Positions 8,650 to 18,279 of a DNA stretch of 64,000 bases are shown piece after piece. This DNA comes from Sphingobacterium sp. lm-10 (lineage in GTDB: Bacteria; Bacteroidota; Bacteroidia; Sphingobacteriales; Sphingobacteriaceae), in assembly GCF_023554555.1 (NCBI RefSeq), contig NZ_JAMJWC010000001.1:1054001-1118000 (forward strand), written 5' to 3'. The stretch's first letter is position 1; each line of letters starts with the position of its first letter. Under the pieces are notes generated by a model. That model saw only the letters and a program-made list of their open reading frames with translations, did not search any database and had not been told where the DNA came from. The position numbers and the translations under genes are program-made.

Positions 8650-9708
8650 TTAATTCGTTTGATTTAACCCCATAAATCTAAAGGGCTCCTTCTGAACAAG
8701 TTGACTATTGCTCCGCCCTGCCAGATTAAAGTTTCCTTCCACTTGTAATTTAAGCACTTTGCCACGCTCACTAAGATCTAATTCTTTCAAATCGAGCCAG
8801 AATGCACTCGGCGCATTGACAGTTTCAAAGTAATACGTCAAATTCTTTTGATCAGAAACAGATCTCCATCGCGTGGAGGAGATGTTTGGTTCCGAAGGAG
8901 AAGATATCCCAAAAGGCACAGAGCAATTGCGAATGACGCTGAATACGCTTGCTAAAGAGTTTCGGGTATTATCTGTTTGTGGAATAGCATCAATATAATA
9001 AGATGCTCTCACAAAACGATCAGCTGCGCGGTTGGTGCCCGGCAGCATCACTGTACCTGGTATCCCCTGCCAATAGGTATTTAATGCAAGCTGCTGATCA
9101 AAAGCGGGCGAATTGGTCATAACCGTGTAACTCGGGTCGTGATGAATCGTTAACTTCCCGTCGATATATTCAAATATGGCGTTATCCCCTGTCTTATCGG
9201 ATATAGATAAATGGAGCGTGGTAAACTTATCTGTACCAGGAATGACATCGCTTACCACCACAAATTTTTCTTGACGAAGTGTCATAACGGCTTCGTTTAC
9301 AGTGGCAAAATTATCAAGTACATATTGCGCCCAGGCCGAAATGCTGAGTCCTTGGGTAGCTCCCTTGGGGTCAAAGGCTGGGTAAGTGGATTCCGCTAAC
9401 CATAGTACATTGGCGACCAAACCTTCTTCATTCATTCCATCTGTGGTGGCGATATCCCAGGCACTGGCTGATACGCTTCCATATTTGGAAGTCCAGGTAA
9501 CGGATTGCTCCCCTACCTCCCCATTTCTTTGCATTCCTCTTGGAAAAACCCATAAATTAACCGGAATTTCATCTCGCCAATCCATACTTCTGGCGGTAAT
9601 AACTGTGCCATTAGGACCTTTATATACCACCCGTGTACACGGAATTGCCTGCAATAGACAAGCCGACGCGGCGAGCGTCGTTAATAGGAAAGATTTTAGT
9701 GATTTCAT
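8650..9708 (-). CDS. secreted linear-amide C-N hydrolase (choloylglycine hydrolase / penicillin V acylase family)
   Basis: A 352-residue Ntn hydrolase. A signal peptide (MKSLKSFLLTTLAASACLLQAIP) precedes C24, which becomes the N-terminal nucleophile after processing. By the family pattern, R40 and D43 (TARSMDW) match the Arg and Asp of the active site, N93 sits in GMNEEGL, and N199 in TNSP. Members cleave bile-salt amides, penicillin V or N-acyl homoserine lactones; the substrate here is not evident. Export to the periplasm favours an acyl-amide or signal-degrading role over cytoplasmic bile-salt hydrolysis. It appears to be a single-gene unit with its own terminator. Confidence 0.9.
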   Translation of the reverse strand: MKSLKSFLLTTLAASACLLQAIPCTRVVYKGPNGTVITARSMDWRDEIPVNLWVFPRGMQRNGEVGEQSVTWTSKYGSVSASAWDIATTDGMNEEGLVANVLWLAESTYPAFDPKGATQGLSISAWAQYVLDNFATVNEAVMTLRQEKFVVVSDVIPGTDKFTTLHLSISDKTGDNAIFEYIDGKLTIHHDPSYTVMTNSPAFDQQLALNTYWQGIPGTVMLPGTNRAADRFVRASYYIDAIPQTDNTRNSLASVFSVIRNCSVPFGISSPSEPNISSTRWRSVSDQKNLTYYFETVNAPSAFWLDLKELDLSERGKVLKLQVEGNFNLAGRSNSQLVQKEPFRFMGLNQTN

Positions 9709-10350: not shown

Positions 10351-10539
10351 ATGAAAACCACCAACAAGAAACAAAAACCCAAAGCCCATTACACCTCACC
10401 CTCAATTGAAGTAGAGACAATTACTGTAGAATATTGTATTGGAGCTGCCTCAGCCACTGTTACCCCCGTTAACTCATCTTCGCAGGTAAGGCAGGAATGG
10501 GACACAGAAGCAGATGTAGTAGGAAATCAAGCTTGGTAA
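10351..10539 (+). CDS. small 62-residue protein paired with a fimbrillin gene
   Basis: The protein has a lysine-rich start (MKTTNKKQKPKAHYTSPSIE), a hydrophobic and polar middle with IGAASATVTP, and a tryptophan-containing acidic tail (QEWDTEADVVGNQAW). There is no signal peptide or membrane helix. It is clearly related to the 58-residue protein encoded at 14619-14795: both have Y-x-SP-x-I-x-V near the start, a following (T/A)-(V/L)-E, then A-(A/S)-S-A-x-V, an NSS stretch and an acidic W region. Both sit immediately upstream of a fimbrillin-type lipoprotein gene. That repeated pairing is the main support for it being a real gene. Function unknown; I do not recognise a named family. Confidence 0.75.
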   Translation: MKTTNKKQKPKAHYTSPSIEVETITVEYCIGAASATVTPVNSSSQVRQEWDTEADVVGNQAW

Positions 10540-10708
10540 CAAAATGCAAAAGCGACCCGTCTAAAATAGATTAGACATGTTGAGCTTACTACTACATAAA
10601 TCTAAACTTATTTTATATTTCTAGTATCCATAATACAATTTGGGCACTGTACTTTTTATGATTATCGTATGCTGATTAGTCAGTTACCGCCAATCTAATA
10701 TCATCATT

Positions 10709-12403
10709 ATGAAAAAAATGACAGAATTATCAAGACACTTCTACCTACTTCTTTTGATCGTAGCAGGTTCAACATGTTGGCTTTCTTCTTGTAACAAGTT
10801 AGAAAATGGAGAATTAGGAGATGGTACTACAGGTACCGTTGAATTCACCCTAAATGCAGCCACTTTTGAGGCCGTAGAAGAACTTGGAAATCGAGCGGCT
10901 ACACCATATTTAACGGACGTTGTGGAAGGAAGTTCGGTCCAGCAAAATACAATCGAACTTGGAAATGGCTTTTTGATGGTAGCTGAATTAACACCAGTAG
11001 ATCCACAAGCAACGCAAACAGGAAATCAATCACTCAAGGATGCTAGCAGAGCAGCATTAGACACAACCAATCTTTCTGCCAACATCAGGTATAGAGTCTT
11101 AGTATATAATTCGGCTGGTGCATATGTGACGGAAAGAGACTATATCCGCGGGCAGGAAGCCAGCACACAAGCATTACAACTCGATGGTGGTAGTACGTAC
11201 AGCTTTATAGTTTACTCCATAAATAGTACGGCGGCTGATCTTCCCGCTGTAACGCCCGCTGCCACGGCTAGCAGGACATTGGCCAACTCACAAATCAGTG
11301 TCGGAGGTACGCAGGACTATATGTATTTTAGACAAAACTTGACCGTTACTGGAAATTCTATTAATCGACTAAATATTGTTTTGAAACACCGATTTAGTCA
11401 AATCACTACAACTATTAATGCTTCTCAGACGAGATATAATATCACTGCTGTTAGCTCGAACTTTCAACCGCATAATACAAATTCATTGGTAAACTTATCA
11501 GATGGTTCATTTACACGGAATGGCACCGCGACCACATCCGCTGTAACTTACCCAACATTGGGAGGTCAGGTGGTCAACGCTGTACCAACGATGATTAATG
11601 CTCCTGCAAATCAAACAACCATTTTTACCATTCCTTCGATAACCATCGGACCGCTGACACAAAACAATTTAACACCGTTTACGACTCTTCGGGTAACACC
11701 AGGAGTGAGATACAATTTAATTTTAAATATTGTACCCACTGATGAATACTTGACACATTCAGGCAGACCAGCCGCACGTATTAACGGTAGAATCTGGGCA
11801 TTACATAACGTAGGCGTTGACCCTAATACCAGTGCTAATCCGGATCCGATAACATCCGTATTCCACGGTAACTTTTATCAATTTGGTCGGAATGTTATTG
11901 TCGCAGCACCAACTGCCACGGCCGTTAACGGTAACTGGAGCAATAGTACAAGTGCGGCTGCTGTGCCCCGGAACTCTTGGAATTCTGGATCAGAAGCTGC
12001 CCCTGCAAGAACCGTATCCGACCCTTGCCCAACGGGTTACAGAGTTCCGACAAGGACAGAAATTCAACAACTACTAGCCAATGTTATTGTCACTAATAGA
12101 GGCCCTTTTGAAGCTGGGTCAGGAAACTATAACTCAGGAAAGGTACTAACCAGTGTACGCAGAGCAGATGTCGTACTCGTATTGCCAGCGCAAGGATTTT
12201 ACAATATAGTCGGCACAAACCCAATAACTCCTGGAGCATTGGAAAACAGAGGTGCAGTTGGACATTATTGGACGAGTTCTGCATCTGGAAACAATTTGTG
12301 GAGACTGATTTTCAATTCAACTTCAGAAACTATTTCAGAACTTCAGGATAATGTAAATTACGTGGCACAGTCGAGGTATGTGAGATGTACCGCTACACTA
12401 TAA
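10709..12403 (+). CDS. fimbrillin-type lipoprotein with C-terminal FISUMP domain
   Basis: A 564-residue lipoprotein. The leader ends WLSSCNK, a lipobox with the lipidated cysteine near residue 28. The N-terminal two thirds (FTLNAATFEAVEELGNRA and onward) resemble the Mfa/FimA fimbrillin superfamily, with repeated beta-strand-rich segments. The last about 160 residues have DPCPTGYRVPTRTEIQQLL, GHYWTSS and a final RYVRC, which are hallmarks of the Fibrobacter succinogenes major paralogous (FISUMP) domain. Proteins of this type are surface adhesins or fimbrial tip components. The gene starts 170 bases after the small 62-residue gene, and a strong terminator follows. Confidence 0.85.
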   Translation: MKKMTELSRHFYLLLLIVAGSTCWLSSCNKLENGELGDGTTGTVEFTLNAATFEAVEELGNRAATPYLTDVVEGSSVQQNTIELGNGFLMVAELTPVDPQATQTGNQSLKDASRAALDTTNLSANIRYRVLVYNSAGAYVTERDYIRGQEASTQALQLDGGSTYSFIVYSINSTAADLPAVTPAATASRTLANSQISVGGTQDYMYFRQNLTVTGNSINRLNIVLKHRFSQITTTINASQTRYNITAVSSNFQPHNTNSLVNLSDGSFTRNGTATTSAVTYPTLGGQVVNAVPTMINAPANQTTIFTIPSITIGPLTQNNLTPFTTLRVTPGVRYNLILNIVPTDEYLTHSGRPAARINGRIWALHNVGVDPNTSANPDPITSVFHGNFYQFGRNVIVAAPTATAVNGNWSNSTSAAAVPRNSWNSGSEAAPARTVSDPCPTGYRVPTRTEIQQLLANVIVTNRGPFEAGSGNYNSGKVLTSVRRADVVLVLPAQGFYNIVGTNPITPGALENRGAVGHYWTSSASGNNLWRLIFNSTSETISELQDNVNYVAQSRYVRCTATL

Positions 12404-12492
12404 AGATGGAAAAAGCTTCTATCAAGGTCGTACGGTTTAGATTTATTTAATTCTTGCCGAGCCATCGAGTAAGCAATATCTTGCACTTCACC

Positions 12493-12550
12493 GTTATAAC
12501 ATAAGAAAGCTTCTCTTTTAGAGAGGCTTTCTTATGTTATAACCTTTTTT
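12493..12550. terminator. bidirectional intrinsic terminator between convergent fimbrillin genes
   Basis: A perfect 18-bp stem with arms 12493-12510 and 12526-12543; further pairing inside extends it. It is followed on the plus strand by CC and nine T. It ends the 10709 gene and may also serve the convergent gene ending at 12649. Confidence 0.9.
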
Positions 12551-12648
12551 TTTGCGCATTAACCTTGAACAGGCAAAAGTTAATAAGGAAAAAATACTAT
12601 GATGCTATTTTCGTTAACCTCCTAAATTCTTATATATTTCCAGAAATG

Positions 12649-14616
12649 TTAGTTAGTATTAATTCCATAGTATTCTGCTCTTTCGGCAGCCCAAACCATT
12701 AAATTGGCAAATAGAACAGAATTATAAACAGGCATGCTTCCTGCAGCCCTGCCATTTCCAGGTCCGCCGTAACTCTCTTTGCGAACCGGGAAGTTTTCGT
12801 ACGGACTTCCGCCTGCAGGTACAGTAGCAAAAGGTTGGGCAAAATAATCAGTGATTGATCCGCTTGAACTGCTGTTAGCCAACATCCCACCATCGCCTAC
12901 GAAAAACAAATTAAGCGTATTGTGCTTGAACATCGTGATACCGGGGTTGCTTTGATTGCTATAGTTTATGGCATTTCCTCCAGTATATATCGTAATATTA
13001 CCGGTAGGAACTCCGGTAAGTGAGGTGGTTGAATTCGCATCTTCGCCTCGAAACAGATTTCTGATATCGCCAAATGGACCATTTAGAATTCTATCATTTA
13101 TGTTGGGAAGCTGATAAACCGCGCCGGAGCCATTAACTCGAGTCCAATCTATTGCTGCGGTATTAAATATATTACGTAGAACATTCCTCCGCTGATTGCT
13201 TTGCGCAACATCTGGGGCACTATCAATCATCAGAATCAAGACTCCACCTGCTCTCACATAATTAGCTAACTCCGTGATTTCATCTGTGTTCAAAGGATAA
13301 AATAACGCAATGATAACTATATCCGGCCTAGGTGTCGCTCTAAGATGAACCAGCAGTCTATCGGAAGCGGCGATACTAGAGACGCGAGTTCGTACAAAGG
13401 GCTGCATTCTGAATATACTATTGGTCTGATTTCCAAAATTACGCGGCTCATATAACATACGGTAAGATGCCCTATTGAGGTCTCCAGCAGAATAACCGAA
13501 AATGATATCAGTGCTTACATGTAAAATTCTTTTACCAGAAATTACACGAAGTAGGTTAACACTACCATTTAGTGACATCCCGACCCTAGGTCGTGTAAAG
13601 TTACCAACCGTGTGCGTAAGAGGTGACCCACTGACCACTAATTGCTCCACTCGACCATTAGGATAGCGAACCGACAGGGCATTGAATCTAACCTGGACAT
13701 TGCTCAGGTTGGAGGGGTCGGCAGTGTAGTACGTCGCTATCTTAACCGCGTCAGAACCTGTCGTTACATTGCTAAAAGTAAGCGGGCCTGTGGCGATGGG
13801 GGTAATACCCGATTTAGTACCAGCACGCAAATCAAATCTTGCCTGTCTTAGCGTTTCATCTGTAAAAATAGCGTTCAAATCCACGATTTGAGCATATATC
13901 GGCTCGGCATTTACCCGAACGGTAACTCTTGCCAACTCGTGTTTGAACGTGATAGGCAACGTTGTATTTCCCGGAACAGTTCTAAATTCGCCGGCAGCGT
14001 ATAAAAGATCCCTCTCTATCGGAGTCTGTATGCTTGGGTTTTGAGTATTTGCTGGCTGTGGGATATCCTGGGTATCATTATAGGAGTAAGCATACCAGAG
14101 GTACTCTTCATTGAGTACAACTTCAATGTTAGTGGTAGTACCAGCGTTTGCTAAGACAGACATGGCAAACTGACCATTCCTCTTATAATAAAGTAGTAAT
14201 CTGTATGTTCTACCTTGCGTCATTAAAGTTGAAGCTCTTGCTTGTGTACTTGCTAGCATCGACATCGTGGGATTCCTATCAAATTCGTTAATAGAAGATC
14301 TGTCGTCGATACCTGTTTGCTCAGATATAATAGTCGCCTGAACATCTGATAGATCCGAAAAATTAATAACGTTATTTGGAGAAATGGGTACCTGTGCTTC
14401 AAGTATTTTTGAAGCAGCGCGTGGTAATATTCCAAGACCTAAACCCTGCCCGGCCTCTATTTCTTCTGTAATGCCAATGATATCTACAGAAATAGACGTT
14501 GATTCCCCACTAATGCTGTTCAAATCTTCTTTGCAAGAAAAGATTAGACTAGAAATGATAACTGCCAAGAAGGCATAAACTATAATCCCATGTCTTTGAA
14601 CAGAATTTGACATCAT
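12649..14616 (-). CDS. large fimbrillin-type lipoprotein with an unusual C-terminal domain
   Basis: A lipoprotein of about 655 residues. I place the start at the ATG 14616 (MMSNSVQRHG), giving a leader that ends SSLIFSCKED with a good lipobox; a longer frame from 14658 would overlap the small upstream gene. The N-terminal half resembles fimbrillins (SISVDIIGITEEIEAG; LPITFKHELARVTVRVNA). The C-terminal half (about residues 360-655) looks different: RPDIVIIALFYPLNTDEI and YVRAGGVLILMIDS suggest a Rossmann-like or glutamine-amidotransferase-like fold, with LNLFFVGDGGML further on. The stop of the 58-residue gene lies 2 bases before this start, so they form an operon. A surface adhesin is likely; the role of the C-terminal domain is unknown. 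Confidence 0.82.
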   Translation of the reverse strand: MMSNSVQRHGIIVYAFLAVIISSLIFSCKEDLNSISGESTSISVDIIGITEEIEAGQGLGLGILPRAASKILEAQVPISPNNVINFSDLSDVQATIISEQTGIDDRSSINEFDRNPTMSMLASTQARASTLMTQGRTYRLLLYYKRNGQFAMSVLANAGTTTNIEVVLNEEYLWYAYSYNDTQDIPQPANTQNPSIQTPIERDLLYAAGEFRTVPGNTTLPITFKHELARVTVRVNAEPIYAQIVDLNAIFTDETLRQARFDLRAGTKSGITPIATGPLTFSNVTTGSDAVKIATYYTADPSNLSNVQVRFNALSVRYPNGRVEQLVVSGSPLTHTVGNFTRPRVGMSLNGSVNLLRVISGKRILHVSTDIIFGYSAGDLNRASYRMLYEPRNFGNQTNSIFRMQPFVRTRVSSIAASDRLLVHLRATPRPDIVIIALFYPLNTDEITELANYVRAGGVLILMIDSAPDVAQSNQRRNVLRNIFNTAAIDWTRVNGSGAVYQLPNINDRILNGPFGDIRNLFRGEDANSTTSLTGVPTGNITIYTGGNAINYSNQSNPGITMFKHNTLNLFFVGDGGMLANSSSSGSITDYFAQPFATVPAGGSPYENFPVRKESYGGPGNGRAAGSMPVYNSVLFANLMVWAAERAEYYGINTN

Positions 14617-14618
14617 GT

Positions 14619-14795
14619 TTAAAAATATAAATTGCTCGAAGAGTTTTGATCTTCCCAACCCTCTATCTCAGGAGTATTCGAAGAGTTCGGTCCACCTAGC
14701 CTCACCACTGCCGATGAGGCAGAAAAGTTCTCTTCAAGCGCAAGAAACACAACCTGTATTTCCGGAGAGACATATTGTTTCTTTTCAGGTATCAT
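14619..14795 (-). CDS. small 58-residue protein paired with a fimbrillin gene
   Basis: ATG at 14795-14793, stop TAA at 14621-14619. The protein starts MIPEKKQYVSPEIQVVF, continues through FSASSAVVRLGGPNSS, and has an acidic IEGWEDQ near the end. It has no signal peptide. It aligns with the 62-residue protein at 10351: Y-x-SP-x-I-x-V, a glutamate eight or nine residues later, A-x-SA-x-V, the NSS run and the acidic tryptophan segment all correspond. Only two bases separate its stop from the ATG of the fimbrillin-type lipoprotein gene, so the two are translationally linked. Function unknown; a chaperone-like, regulatory or secreted partner of the fimbrillin are all possible. Confidence 0.72.
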   Translation of the reverse strand: MIPEKKQYVSPEIQVVFLALEENFSASSAVVRLGGPNSSNTPEIEGWEDQNSSSNLYF

Positions 14796-15350: not shown

Positions 15351-16799
15351 CTACTGCGGCTTGGGAAAAGCATAAAATACAATGCCTTGATTCTCCCATC
15401 CTATAAAATAATTATTCCTTTCAAATGTATGATCGTGCATAGAGGCATGAAAATGCTTATAAATAGGAACTGCCCCAGGTACAGTAGCTTTCGGAACGTA
15501 AAATATTATACCCTGATTTGAAAGGTCTGAATTTCGACGCTGCAAATTAGGGTCGGTGTAGTACACATGTGATTTATAAGACTTTATGTAATATTTATAA
15601 ACGGGAACACTATTGGGTGCTTGATAGTTATACACATAGAATGGAATATGTTCCTTTTGTAGATTTGAGTCATAATCTCTTAAGTTTGGGCGAGGGTCAT
15701 AAATATGATCTTGAGCCCAAGTCCAATAATATCTGTATACAGGAATCTTATTAAGTGTAATCTTTGTCGAATTCTTATTTAGATACCATTCCAAATAGAT
15801 TTTCATATACTCCCTTTTTGTAGGATTTGAAATAAACTCATAAATCGGTACCATTCCATTTTTTCCATATTCAATCAATACCGCATTTTTTAAGTTTACG
15901 GTAGATTGCCAGTTGTCGATATTAATCTTTTGAGGCGTTTTGCCATCTAAAATCATCTCTCCCACCAATCCTTTGCTACCGTCTCCACCAATTGATCTAT
16001 AGTTAATCTGCTGTTTAGAATTGGAATTAGCTGCAGAATGATTGTAAGCAAAATCTACTTTTACATTCCATACTTTTTGTAACCCATTTAGTGCTAGCCC
16101 CGCCGCTACTGACTGATGTTTATTTTCTGTATTGGTCTCTGTTTTATAACCCAAACAAAATTTTGCCCCCAAATGAATATGAGTTAAAACGTGGGTTCCG
16201 TAAAATTCCACAAGATCTTGAGGAGAGTACTTTTCTAAATCTTCCAGAAATTCGCGACTCAGATAGTTATTTCTCAGATCCTCGACTGCCGTTGCCAATC
16301 TCAATGTCCTCATAAAAATTCGTTTGTTAGCACTTGCTAATGAATAACTTCCATGATAAGCAGAACTTCCACCGAATGAGGCATTTATTTCAGTACGGAA
16401 CATTTTTTTCACTCCAAAACCGCTATTAATGTTTATCGATAGAGAATCAGAATAGCTTTCCGCATTATCCGCTATTATATATCTAAAATCGTCATTCACA
16501 CCAACATCATCTATAAATCTTTCATTATTGTTGGCGATAAACTTGGGCACATCAATAACTGCTAACTTTGCAGAGACTCTGTTAGCATATAAACCAGTCG
16601 CGTCATAACCATGACCAATTAAATTAGTGGGGCCATGATCCGAAGCTGCCATTACGCTTCTGCTGATTGTTGATTTCCTTTTTTTAATTTCTTGATCAAT
16701 CTGGTCTTGATCATTTAAATTTTCAAGTTCGGATACTGAACAACCTACCATTGTAGCCAATAGTAAGAAAGTTCCAATTAATTTTAATTTCATACACAT
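15351..16799 (-). CDS. MACPF-domain lipoprotein with three C-terminal aromatic repeats
   Basis: A 482-residue lipoprotein. The leader ends LLLATMVGC with the lipidated cysteine at residue 20; a second in-frame ATG two codons later is an alternative start. Residues about 55-350 form a membrane attack complex/perforin domain; the signature is YGTHVLTHIHLGAKF at 200-214. The C-terminal 130 residues hold three repeats (about 352-390, 398-435, 444-476), each of the form (V/I)P(V/I)Y(K/R)xx, then a histidine-containing HxY or HxF, then a closing (I/V)xFYxx. These resemble DUF5648-type modules. In Bacteroidales, MACPF lipoproteins such as the BSAPs kill related strains by forming pores; a similar role, or a self-protective one, is possible here but unproven. 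Confidence 0.85.
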   Translation of the reverse strand: MCMKLKLIGTFLLLATMVGCSVSELENLNDQDQIDQEIKKRKSTISRSVMAASDHGPTNLIGHGYDATGLYANRVSAKLAVIDVPKFIANNNERFIDDVGVNDDFRYIIADNAESYSDSLSININSGFGVKKMFRTEINASFGGSSAYHGSYSLASANKRIFMRTLRLATAVEDLRNNYLSREFLEDLEKYSPQDLVEFYGTHVLTHIHLGAKFCLGYKTETNTENKHQSVAAGLALNGLQKVWNVKVDFAYNHSAANSNSKQQINYRSIGGDGSKGLVGEMILDGKTPQKINIDNWQSTVNLKNAVLIEYGKNGMVPIYEFISNPTKREYMKIYLEWYLNKNSTKITLNKIPVYRYYWTWAQDHIYDPRPNLRDYDSNLQKEHIPFYVYNYQAPNSVPVYKYYIKSYKSHVYYTDPNLQRRNSDLSNQGIIFYVPKATVPGAVPIYKHFHASMHDHTFERNNYFIGWENQGIVFYAFPKPQ

Positions 16800-17532: not shown

Positions 17533-17912
17533 GGAAACCAGCGGAATTGCTTTCGTACCAAAAATCCGCAGGCATTAAGTAAGAACCTGATTGAAGGGTT
17601 CTCATCCCTAGCTTACAAAAAAAACCCAATCTTTCGATTGAGCTTTTTTTGTGGAGCCGGAGGGATTGCTTGCGTCCCATAACCCCGCACACCGGCCCGC
17701 AGCGAAGAAAGTTCGAACCCTCCTATCGGGTTCTCATCCCTCGGTCACAAAAAAAGCCCAATCTTTCGATTGAGCTTTTTTGTGGAGCCGGAGGGATTGC
17801 TTGCGTCCCATAACCCCGCACACCGGCCCGCAGCGAAAACAGTTCGAACCCTCCTGTCGGATTCTCATCCCTCGCTTACAAAAAAAGCCCAATCTTTCGA
17901 TTGAGCTTTTTT
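17533..17912 (-). repeat. tandem 131-bp repeats derived from the ssrA 3' end
   Basis: The boundary GTGGAGCCGGAGGGATT occurs at 17651, 17782 and 17913 on the plus strand, an exact 131-base period. The third copy is the true tmRNA 3' end. Units 17651-17781 and 17782-17912 differ at only a few positions. A partial unit lies at about 17596-17650 and a more decayed one at about 17533-17595. Each unit, read on the minus strand, has a T-arm half (GGAGGGTTCG), a GC-rich insert of 46 bases, the other T-arm half with the acceptor strand (AATCCCTCCGGCTCC), and a copy of the ssrA terminator hairpin. No unit can encode a full tmRNA. They look like scars of repeated insertion at the ssrA 3' end, or a repeat family derived from it. 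Confidence 0.85.
17880..17907 (-). terminator. ssrA terminator
   Basis: Arms 17886-17894 and 17899-17907 (9 bp with a G-U pair, GAAA loop on the minus strand), then a T run on the minus strand. The same hairpin is copied in each of the upstream tandem repeats. Confidence 0.85.
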
Positions 17913-17913
17913 G

Positions 17914-18279
17914 TGGAGCCGGAGGGATTCGAACCCTCGTCCAAACATAGTATGATCTACGCTTTCTACATGCTTAGCTTCTCTTTAATTGTCGGGAACC
18001 TGGAAGGTGAGTCGCTTACCTATACCCTGCTCCTTAGTTACTGAATCTTGTCAATGCTTAGTAACATCACATTAACCAGTTCTACAGTTCGATGCCTCTG
18101 ATGTTAGACGGTAGAACGAAGTCTAACGAGACAAATAGCTATGTTAAGTCTAACTTAAGCAGCTAAGGCGTAGTTTTCTTCGCCAGTTGTAAAGTTGAAA
18201 GTTCAGATTATAGTGCTAGACTAACAATGCACTGCATGCTTACATAACCATCGCTATCCTGTCAATTCCGGTCGACCCC
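17914..18279 (-). ncRNA. ssrA: transfer-messenger RNA (tmRNA)
   Basis: The 366-base RNA runs from GGGGTCG (18279-18273) to the acceptor strand CGGCTCC with discriminator A at 17914. The seven acceptor pairs form with two G-U pairs, and the T-arm is GAGGGTTCGAATCCCTC. CCA is not encoded. The tag reading frame starts at GGC 18184 and reads GEENYALAA followed by TAA (18157-18155), so with the charged alanine the tag is AGEENYALAA. This marks stalled nascent chains for ClpXP-type proteases. A TACTTTTG box at 18312-18319 (minus) is a candidate promoter, implying a short 5' leader that is trimmed. The 3' end is duplicated in the tandem repeats just downstream. Confidence 0.95.

Follow-up and report, generated by a model that had tools for sequence, protein, structure and literature searches.

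Genes for tiny proteins of one family stand beside genes for fimbrillin-type lipoproteins in Sphingobacterium, a pairing that we hold to be real with near certainty. It was followed up from a stretch of 64,000 nucleotides of Sphingobacterium sp. lm-10 (contig NZ_JAMJWC010000001.1, positions 1,054,001 to 1,118,000; hereafter the window), in which two such small genes accompany two convergent lipoprotein genes. Adhesins of the fimbrillin lipoprotein type are common throughout Bacteroidota, and to our knowledge the handling of single-gene fimbrillins is poorly known. The copy number of the tiny partner tracks that of the adhesin in 60 species, and the two genes occur in both orders, which suggests that a step in the production or use of these adhesins has been missed. 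The pairing recurs in additional genera as well as in genomes of gut type, and the conserved leader of the small protein gives a starting point from which to search for the machinery that would read it.

Small genes paired with lipoprotein genes

In the window, small protein A (62 amino acids (aa), ATG start, positions 10351..10539, plus strand) and small protein B (58 aa, ATG start, 14619..14795, minus strand) are encoded by the two open reading frames (ORFs) that the original prediction, made from the sequence alone, had named. Protein A carries a leader (Y14-x-x-P17-x-I19-x-V21 ... E27 ... S34) and an acidic tail ending in W, and protein B has a leader as in A and a GG-type tail ending in F. 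Their proposed homology was borne out in the N-terminal half (11/27 identities, BLASTP E 3e-5 in a single comparison), both are members of the family profile (E 8.6e-21 and 5.0e-23, respectively), and, as had been proposed, no signal peptide is apparent by eye in either. A relative of A, P0007, is 47% identical to it (record name Sphingobacterium chungjuense). The partner of A, lipoprotein 1 (564 aa, 10709..12403, plus strand), begins after a gap of 169 bases at ATG 10709 and consists of a lipoprotein signal peptide, a fimbrillin domain and a C-terminal FISUMP-like domain, the last matching FISUMP weakly and below both cut-offs (Pfam E 0.0028, NCBIfam E 2.2e-4). The partner of B, lipoprotein 2 (655 aa, 12649..14616, minus strand), has its ATG (14616) two bases past the stop of the small gene; an alternative in-frame TTG at 14658 would overlap that gene. 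Both small genes are upstream of their lipoprotein genes, as predicted, with tight spacing for B only. Both lipoproteins match one family profile (E 7.1e-131 for 1 and 2.5e-92 for 2), and their C-terminal parts differ as claimed: lipoprotein 2 gave weak matches, both below cut-off, to Mfa_like_1 (PF13149, E 6.8e-5) and ABC_transp_aux (E 0.028).

The same arrangement recurs elsewhere in this genome. A search with small protein A gave five further candidates, reading of the surroundings added one more, and a profile of eight small-protein sequences (A2) then found 11 members at E 2.5e-5 or better, nine close and two distant. All nine close members lie directly before a lipoprotein gene of one family, with gaps of 2 to 169 bases, which places the pairing far above chance. 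Counted from the lipoprotein side, which was done in this genome only, a profile built from 36 lipoproteins (A5) gave ten matches, nine of them with a small gene.

To extend the count, we sampled 60 stretches from the top of the match list of a profile of 25 small-protein sequences (A3), family-level loci and wider contexts, so that low scorers are under-sampled. These 103 loci gave 118 distinct small ORFs (129 before repeats were removed), and a lipoprotein gene of the family lay within 700 bases, open frame to open frame, of 114 of them, in line with the predicted conservation of the pairing; adding the two distant members of the lm-10 genome, which are outside this set, gives 114/120. Of the 114, 98 have the lipoprotein gene downstream (97 within 150 bases, many within 50), 14 have it upstream in the same orientation (13 of them within 150 bases) and 2 are divergent. 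The small gene thus need not come first, as it does in the window; the 14/118 reversed cases are independent of the seed of the lipoprotein profile, which came from genes downstream of small ORFs. The short spacing of many pairs suggests that they form one transcription unit. In a second sample of 76 named loci, which overlaps the first in part of its genes, 92 distinct small ORFs had the lipoprotein gene downstream in 59 cases, upstream in 26, convergent in 2 and absent in 5, and 84/92 had it on the same strand within 150 bases. Among seven short partner genes, four of them in one genome (G053), six show a change of frame: in L029, L030, L033, L042, L069 (minus-strand copy) and L083, the lipoprotein profile continues in another frame while the small gene is open. 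These lipoprotein genes look frameshifted, with decay, phase variation or assembly error as candidate causes.

Copy numbers tell the same story at the level of the genus. Profile A3 found 1-18 copies of the small gene in 53/60 genomes, and in total 358 small genes (E 0.01) stood against 392 lipoproteins (E 1e-5). The two counts correlate across the 60 genomes, relatedness ignored (Spearman 0.957, Pearson 0.939); both are zero in four genomes, and three have lipoproteins and no small gene. Beyond the genus the family thins out. Profile A2 matched 5/61 genomes at the family level, four of them in the genus; 25/151 genomes matched at the order level, all within the genus; and 6/395 matched at the phylum level, half of them in the genus and the other half at E 4.8e-4 to 0.009. 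Named records identify the genus as Sphingobacterium and add members in Elizabethkingia and Pedobacter cryoconitis, so the homologues outside the lm-10 genome for which the original prediction called do exist. In Elizabethkingia and Pedobacter together, 24/27 small genes have the lipoprotein gene within 150 bases downstream. A third gene ('...FPxFAGKxYxFIxxQG...') recurs between or after the pair in Elizabethkingia (L169, L155 and L203). The same pair is found in a record labelled as a Thermoanaerobacteraceae metagenome-assembled genome, perhaps through contamination; this record was counted with Sphingobacterium in the second sample.

A diverged form of the pairing, judged by profile and sequence comparison, recurs in Prevotella-like genomes, where a small leader ORF precedes fimbrillin-like genes. 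The starting point there was a 61-aa ORF before a fimbrillin-like gene at L113, whose genome belongs to a different family within the class. A search with this ORF gave 213 proteins at E 1 or better, and among the 120 listed one was named from Prevotella. Its leader profile compared with that of A3 at a probability of 96.3% (E 1.7e-9, a single comparison). A scan with the L113 family found 21 matches in 18/201 genomes of that family; 11 of the 12 matches with E < 1e-3, and 2 of the 9 weaker ones, stand directly before a lipoprotein gene. All 13 of these lipoproteins are mutually related (phmmer), and ten of them were scanned for PF13149, which was above cut-off in 4, below it in 1 and absent in 5. 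Profiles of the Sphingobacterium and Prevotella-like partner families match each other weakly (probability 32%, 61 columns), so that the case for fimbrillins on both sides comes from the hits to PF13149 together with the fold of one of the two families. By eye, the Prevotella-like pair often follows a gene resembling a Wzc-type polysaccharide chain-length kinase (L245, L247 and L250-L254).

The small protein and the fimbrillin domain of its partner

The small proteins share a leader with the consensus Y-x-x-P-x-[ILV] ... E-x-x-I-A-A-G-S, followed by a variable acidic tail. Over 190 aligned members, the three motif positions of the leader are Y in 99%, P in 98% and I/V/L in 89%; among 191 distinct proteins, Y and P stand at the same values, and the later leader positions are E 100%, I 87%, A 92%, A 78%, G 79% and S 100%, figures that are inflated because the members were chosen by a profile. 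The tail contains W in 90%, and its last residue is W, F or L in 151/191; the mean charge is about +0.4 for the leader and -4.5 for the tail in the 181 proteins that could be split by pattern. The ratio of nonsynonymous to synonymous substitution rates (dN/dS) was below 1 in 223/223 pairs of small genes (aa identity of at least 50%, dS 0.05-2) with a median of 0.16, and in 35/35 pairs with a median of 0.14 when each locus was used once. The family is thus under strong coding constraint and purifying selection, and none of the three outcomes that the prediction had named as refuting it (homologues confined to this genome, no conserved pairing, no coding constraint) came about. It had also stated that no named family was known, and this stands. 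Pfam and NCBIfam gave zero entries for small proteins A and B at E 1, the best matches of 25 members (NCBIfam E 0.023, Pfam E 0.071) stayed below cut-off, and the PDB sequences gave no significant match (best E 0.63). A protein search with the single sequence of member P0001 returned zero matches, and an alignment-based search returned 22, some from the lm-10 genome.

The partner lipoprotein is predicted to have the type V pilin (FimA/Mfa) fold by which a fimbrillin is recognized. A lipobox with a hydrophobic stretch was found by pattern in 96/114 partners, and several of the 18 without it are cut by the end of the locus. Furthermore, the motif R/K-A/S-A/S/T follows the first strand in 49/75 partners, compared to 6, 7 and 8/75 in control windows, and is a candidate trypsin-like processing site. 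In the window, the motif is RAA in both lipoproteins, 38 residues past the lipobox Cys in lipoprotein 2 and 39 residues past the Cys chosen by the script in lipoprotein 1, for which the likelier lipobox Cys is five residues further on. PF13149 is a poor probe in the genus, with one weak match in the lm-10 genome, and a scan of the phylum with it matched 3/247 genomes. No small gene lies within about 1.5 kb on either side of 12 of the 14 PF13149 matches, these 12 being in two genomes of one family (f11), and the other two are Sphingobacterium pairs. Fimbrillins in general lack a small partner gene.

Which part of the lipoprotein the small protein follows was examined in 74 pairs: of 114 paired lipoproteins, 96 have a lipobox, 82 of these are not cut by the locus end, 75 of those have at least 460 aa, and 74 are distinct. 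Distances between tails correlate with distances between lipoprotein residues 31-370 (r 0.66 over all pairs and 0.82 within genomes; 0/500 and 0/1000 permutations reached the observed r), and the leader gave a weaker correlation (r 0.30 and 0.63). The link between tail and fimbrillin domain persists given the C-terminal domain (0.53 and 0.69), whereas that between tail and C-terminal domain vanishes given the fimbrillin domain (-0.05 and -0.13). Ward clustering, used because the two-cluster cut of average linkage was uninformative (one outlier versus 73), divides the lipoproteins into two clades of 30 and 44. GG occurs in the tails of 24/30 in one clade and 2/44 in the other, and a terminal W in 5/30 versus 36/44 (5/19 versus 24/31 when thinned by genome); the window holds one pair of each lipoprotein clade and tail kind. 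By these comparisons, the tail tracks the fimbrillin domain of its partner and not the C-terminal domain, and the correlation suggests contact. A candidate form of mimicry, in which the tail would imitate a strand of the lipoprotein it is paired with, was rejected for want of a signal: in 33/74 pairs the true partner outscored the mean for six other partners.

Possible roles of the small protein

The reading that we favour, tentatively and at a little under an even chance, is that the small protein is a dedicated pilot or chaperone for the precursor of its fimbrillin lipoprotein, with the leader working on shared machinery and the tail on its own partner. Docking on shared cell machinery would fall to the conserved leader and binding of the partner's fimbrillin domain to the acidic tail, and the action would take place in the cytosol, before the precursor reaches the Sec system. 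The placement in the cytosol follows from the lack of a visible export signal and the failure of the two peptide export routes tested below; the freedom of gene order and the lack of matches to families of known function leave a trans-acting protein specific to its neighbour. Among the roles that had been suggested (a dedicated partner, a regulator or a peptide product), the dedicated partner fits best.

Several findings weigh against this reading. AlphaFold2 models of a natural adjacent pair as one chain gave block means of about 46-64 in the predicted local distance difference test (pLDDT) for the small part, which had at most one helical turn and no bound state, and P0001 modelled alone gave a mean pLDDT of 65 and a predicted template modelling score of 0.21. 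The small protein is predicted to be disordered, and the models give no hint of a chaperone-like fold or of tail binding. With its short, linear leader and variable tail, it resembles an exported or processed precursor as much as a chaperone. The leader keeps a link to the fimbrillin domain given the tail (0.24 over all pairs and 0.52 within genomes), and linked inheritance alone gives part of such a tree correlation, so contact is not proved. Pairing also has its gaps. Four of the 118 small ORFs are unpaired: L153; L143 and L060, whose neighbours look by eye like arabinose-type genes; and L080, for which about 1.2 kb of the upstream side was available. In the lm-10 genome, no small gene was seen beside the second of three tandem lipoprotein genes (C1:37862-39565). 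The two distant members of that genome, C1:920042 and C1:463037 (L021 and L022), have no family lipoprotein beside them. These two share the front half and have lysine-rich tails, and the next genes are, by eye, lipase-like and a Crp-like regulator; the leader may serve other tails.

Next in order, and in our view unlikely, is an exported peptide. The leader would be read by an undescribed enzyme or exporter and cut near A-A-G/S, and the acidic tail would act outside, e.g. by binding or completing the adhesin. The leader-tail anatomy with its invariant Ser after small residues is consistent with such a peptide, and so is the predicted nature of the partner, an adhesin like a type V pilin that carries a candidate site for processing. 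In addition, Y-x-x-P-x-[ILV] resembles YxxPxL, the leader motif of lasso peptides in the portion of PMC10368454 available to us, and the UniRef name of member P0019 begins 'Lasso RiPP family leader peptide-c'. However, the NCBIfam models gave no significant match to P0019 or to the 25 members, and inspection by eye of the loci that were read showed no recurrent gene for biosynthesis or transport next to the pairs. The two export routes also argue against it. The lasso leader protease PF13471 was found in 0/60 genomes of the genus at E 1e-3, which excludes lasso maturation. C39 peptidase is missing in 17/60 genomes, and 14 of those carry small genes (1-18; three single-contig), so a C39 transporter is not required and double-glycine/C39 export was rejected as a necessary route. 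A broader and decidedly speculative version, which we rate as improbable, is an undescribed Bacteroidota-wide delivery system in which a Y-x-x-P ... E-x-x-[IF]-x-A-x-S leader would send the tail out through a machine not yet known, and outside the cell each tail would complete, as a dedicated strand or cap, the fimbrillin domain of the adhesin it belongs to once that domain has lost its first strand.

There is also a slim chance that the small protein is a trans-acting regulator that tunes the expression of its own lipoprotein through a shared cytosolic factor. The protein is cytosolic by default, the short spacing of many pairs is suggestive of co-transcription, and the leader, being common to all members, could bind a single regulator; against this, the protein matches no DNA- or RNA-binding family in Pfam or NCBIfam, its tail is acidic, and that tail tracks the fimbrillin domain in particular, which expression control does not need. 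Control of the lipoprotein gene in cis, through translation of the small gene as an upstream ORF or leader attenuator, is very improbable: the upstream position in 98/118 cases, often within 50 bases, and the 2-base spacing in the window would suit it, but the lipoprotein gene comes first in 14/118 (26/92 in the second sample) and is divergent in 2, so a fixed 5' position does not hold and an upstream regulatory ORF was rejected, and purifying selection acts on the protein. A true lasso peptide precursor has next to no chance; its YxxPxI motif and the one UniRef name stand against the PF13471 protease missing from all 60 genomes of the genus, which excludes lasso processing as a required route, and against a conserved A-A-G-S at the leader end in place of the Thr/Ile(-2) (or Val) followed by Gly1 at the core start that the accessible portion of PMC10368454 gives as the leader border.

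Neighbouring features and comparison with known systems

Between the convergent lipoprotein genes lies an inverted repeat (12493..12543) with 24-nt arms that are 96% complementary and a loop of 3 nt; a T run comes after it, and together they are the probable shared terminator of both genes. No match to a Bacteroidota promoter pattern was found beside small gene A or B. Upstream of the first pair, the opposite strand encodes a choloylglycine hydrolase family protein (8650-9708, minus strand; PF02275, E 5.6e-50). Next to the second pair is a gene for a MACPF-domain protein with a lipoprotein-like start and DUF5648 (15351-16799, minus strand), which matches the BSAP5a pore-forming toxin family at E 1.8e-11, far below the cut-off of that family. 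Positions 17596-17929 hold an apparently non-coding tandem repeat (131-base unit, 2.5 copies, 94% matches).

In the literature searched, to which most subscription papers did not belong, a pairing of a tiny protein with a fimbrillin lipoprotein is not described, and the parts of two accounts of the fim and mfa loci available to us mention no comparable small gene (PMC11316588, PMC5954841). Compared with known fimbrillin loci (FimA, Mfa1-4, PF13149), the unit described here comprises two genes, one of them for the tiny partner, and its lipoprotein has a large C-terminal domain; stem, anchor or tip genes were not seen by eye next to the pairs in the loci that were read, no genome-wide search for them having been made. 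Lasso precursors share with the small protein the Y-x-x-P-x-[ILV] in a short N-terminal leader and the variable C-terminal part, and they differ in the protease and leader border discussed above and in that the regular neighbour here is a surface lipoprotein. Type III secretion chaperones are dedicated proteins encoded beside their cargo. The small protein differs from such chaperones in being much shorter and predicted to be disordered, with no sequence relation found; it resembles them in its small size, acidic tail and lack of a signal, in the presence of about one gene per cargo gene, and in a sequence matched to the cargo.
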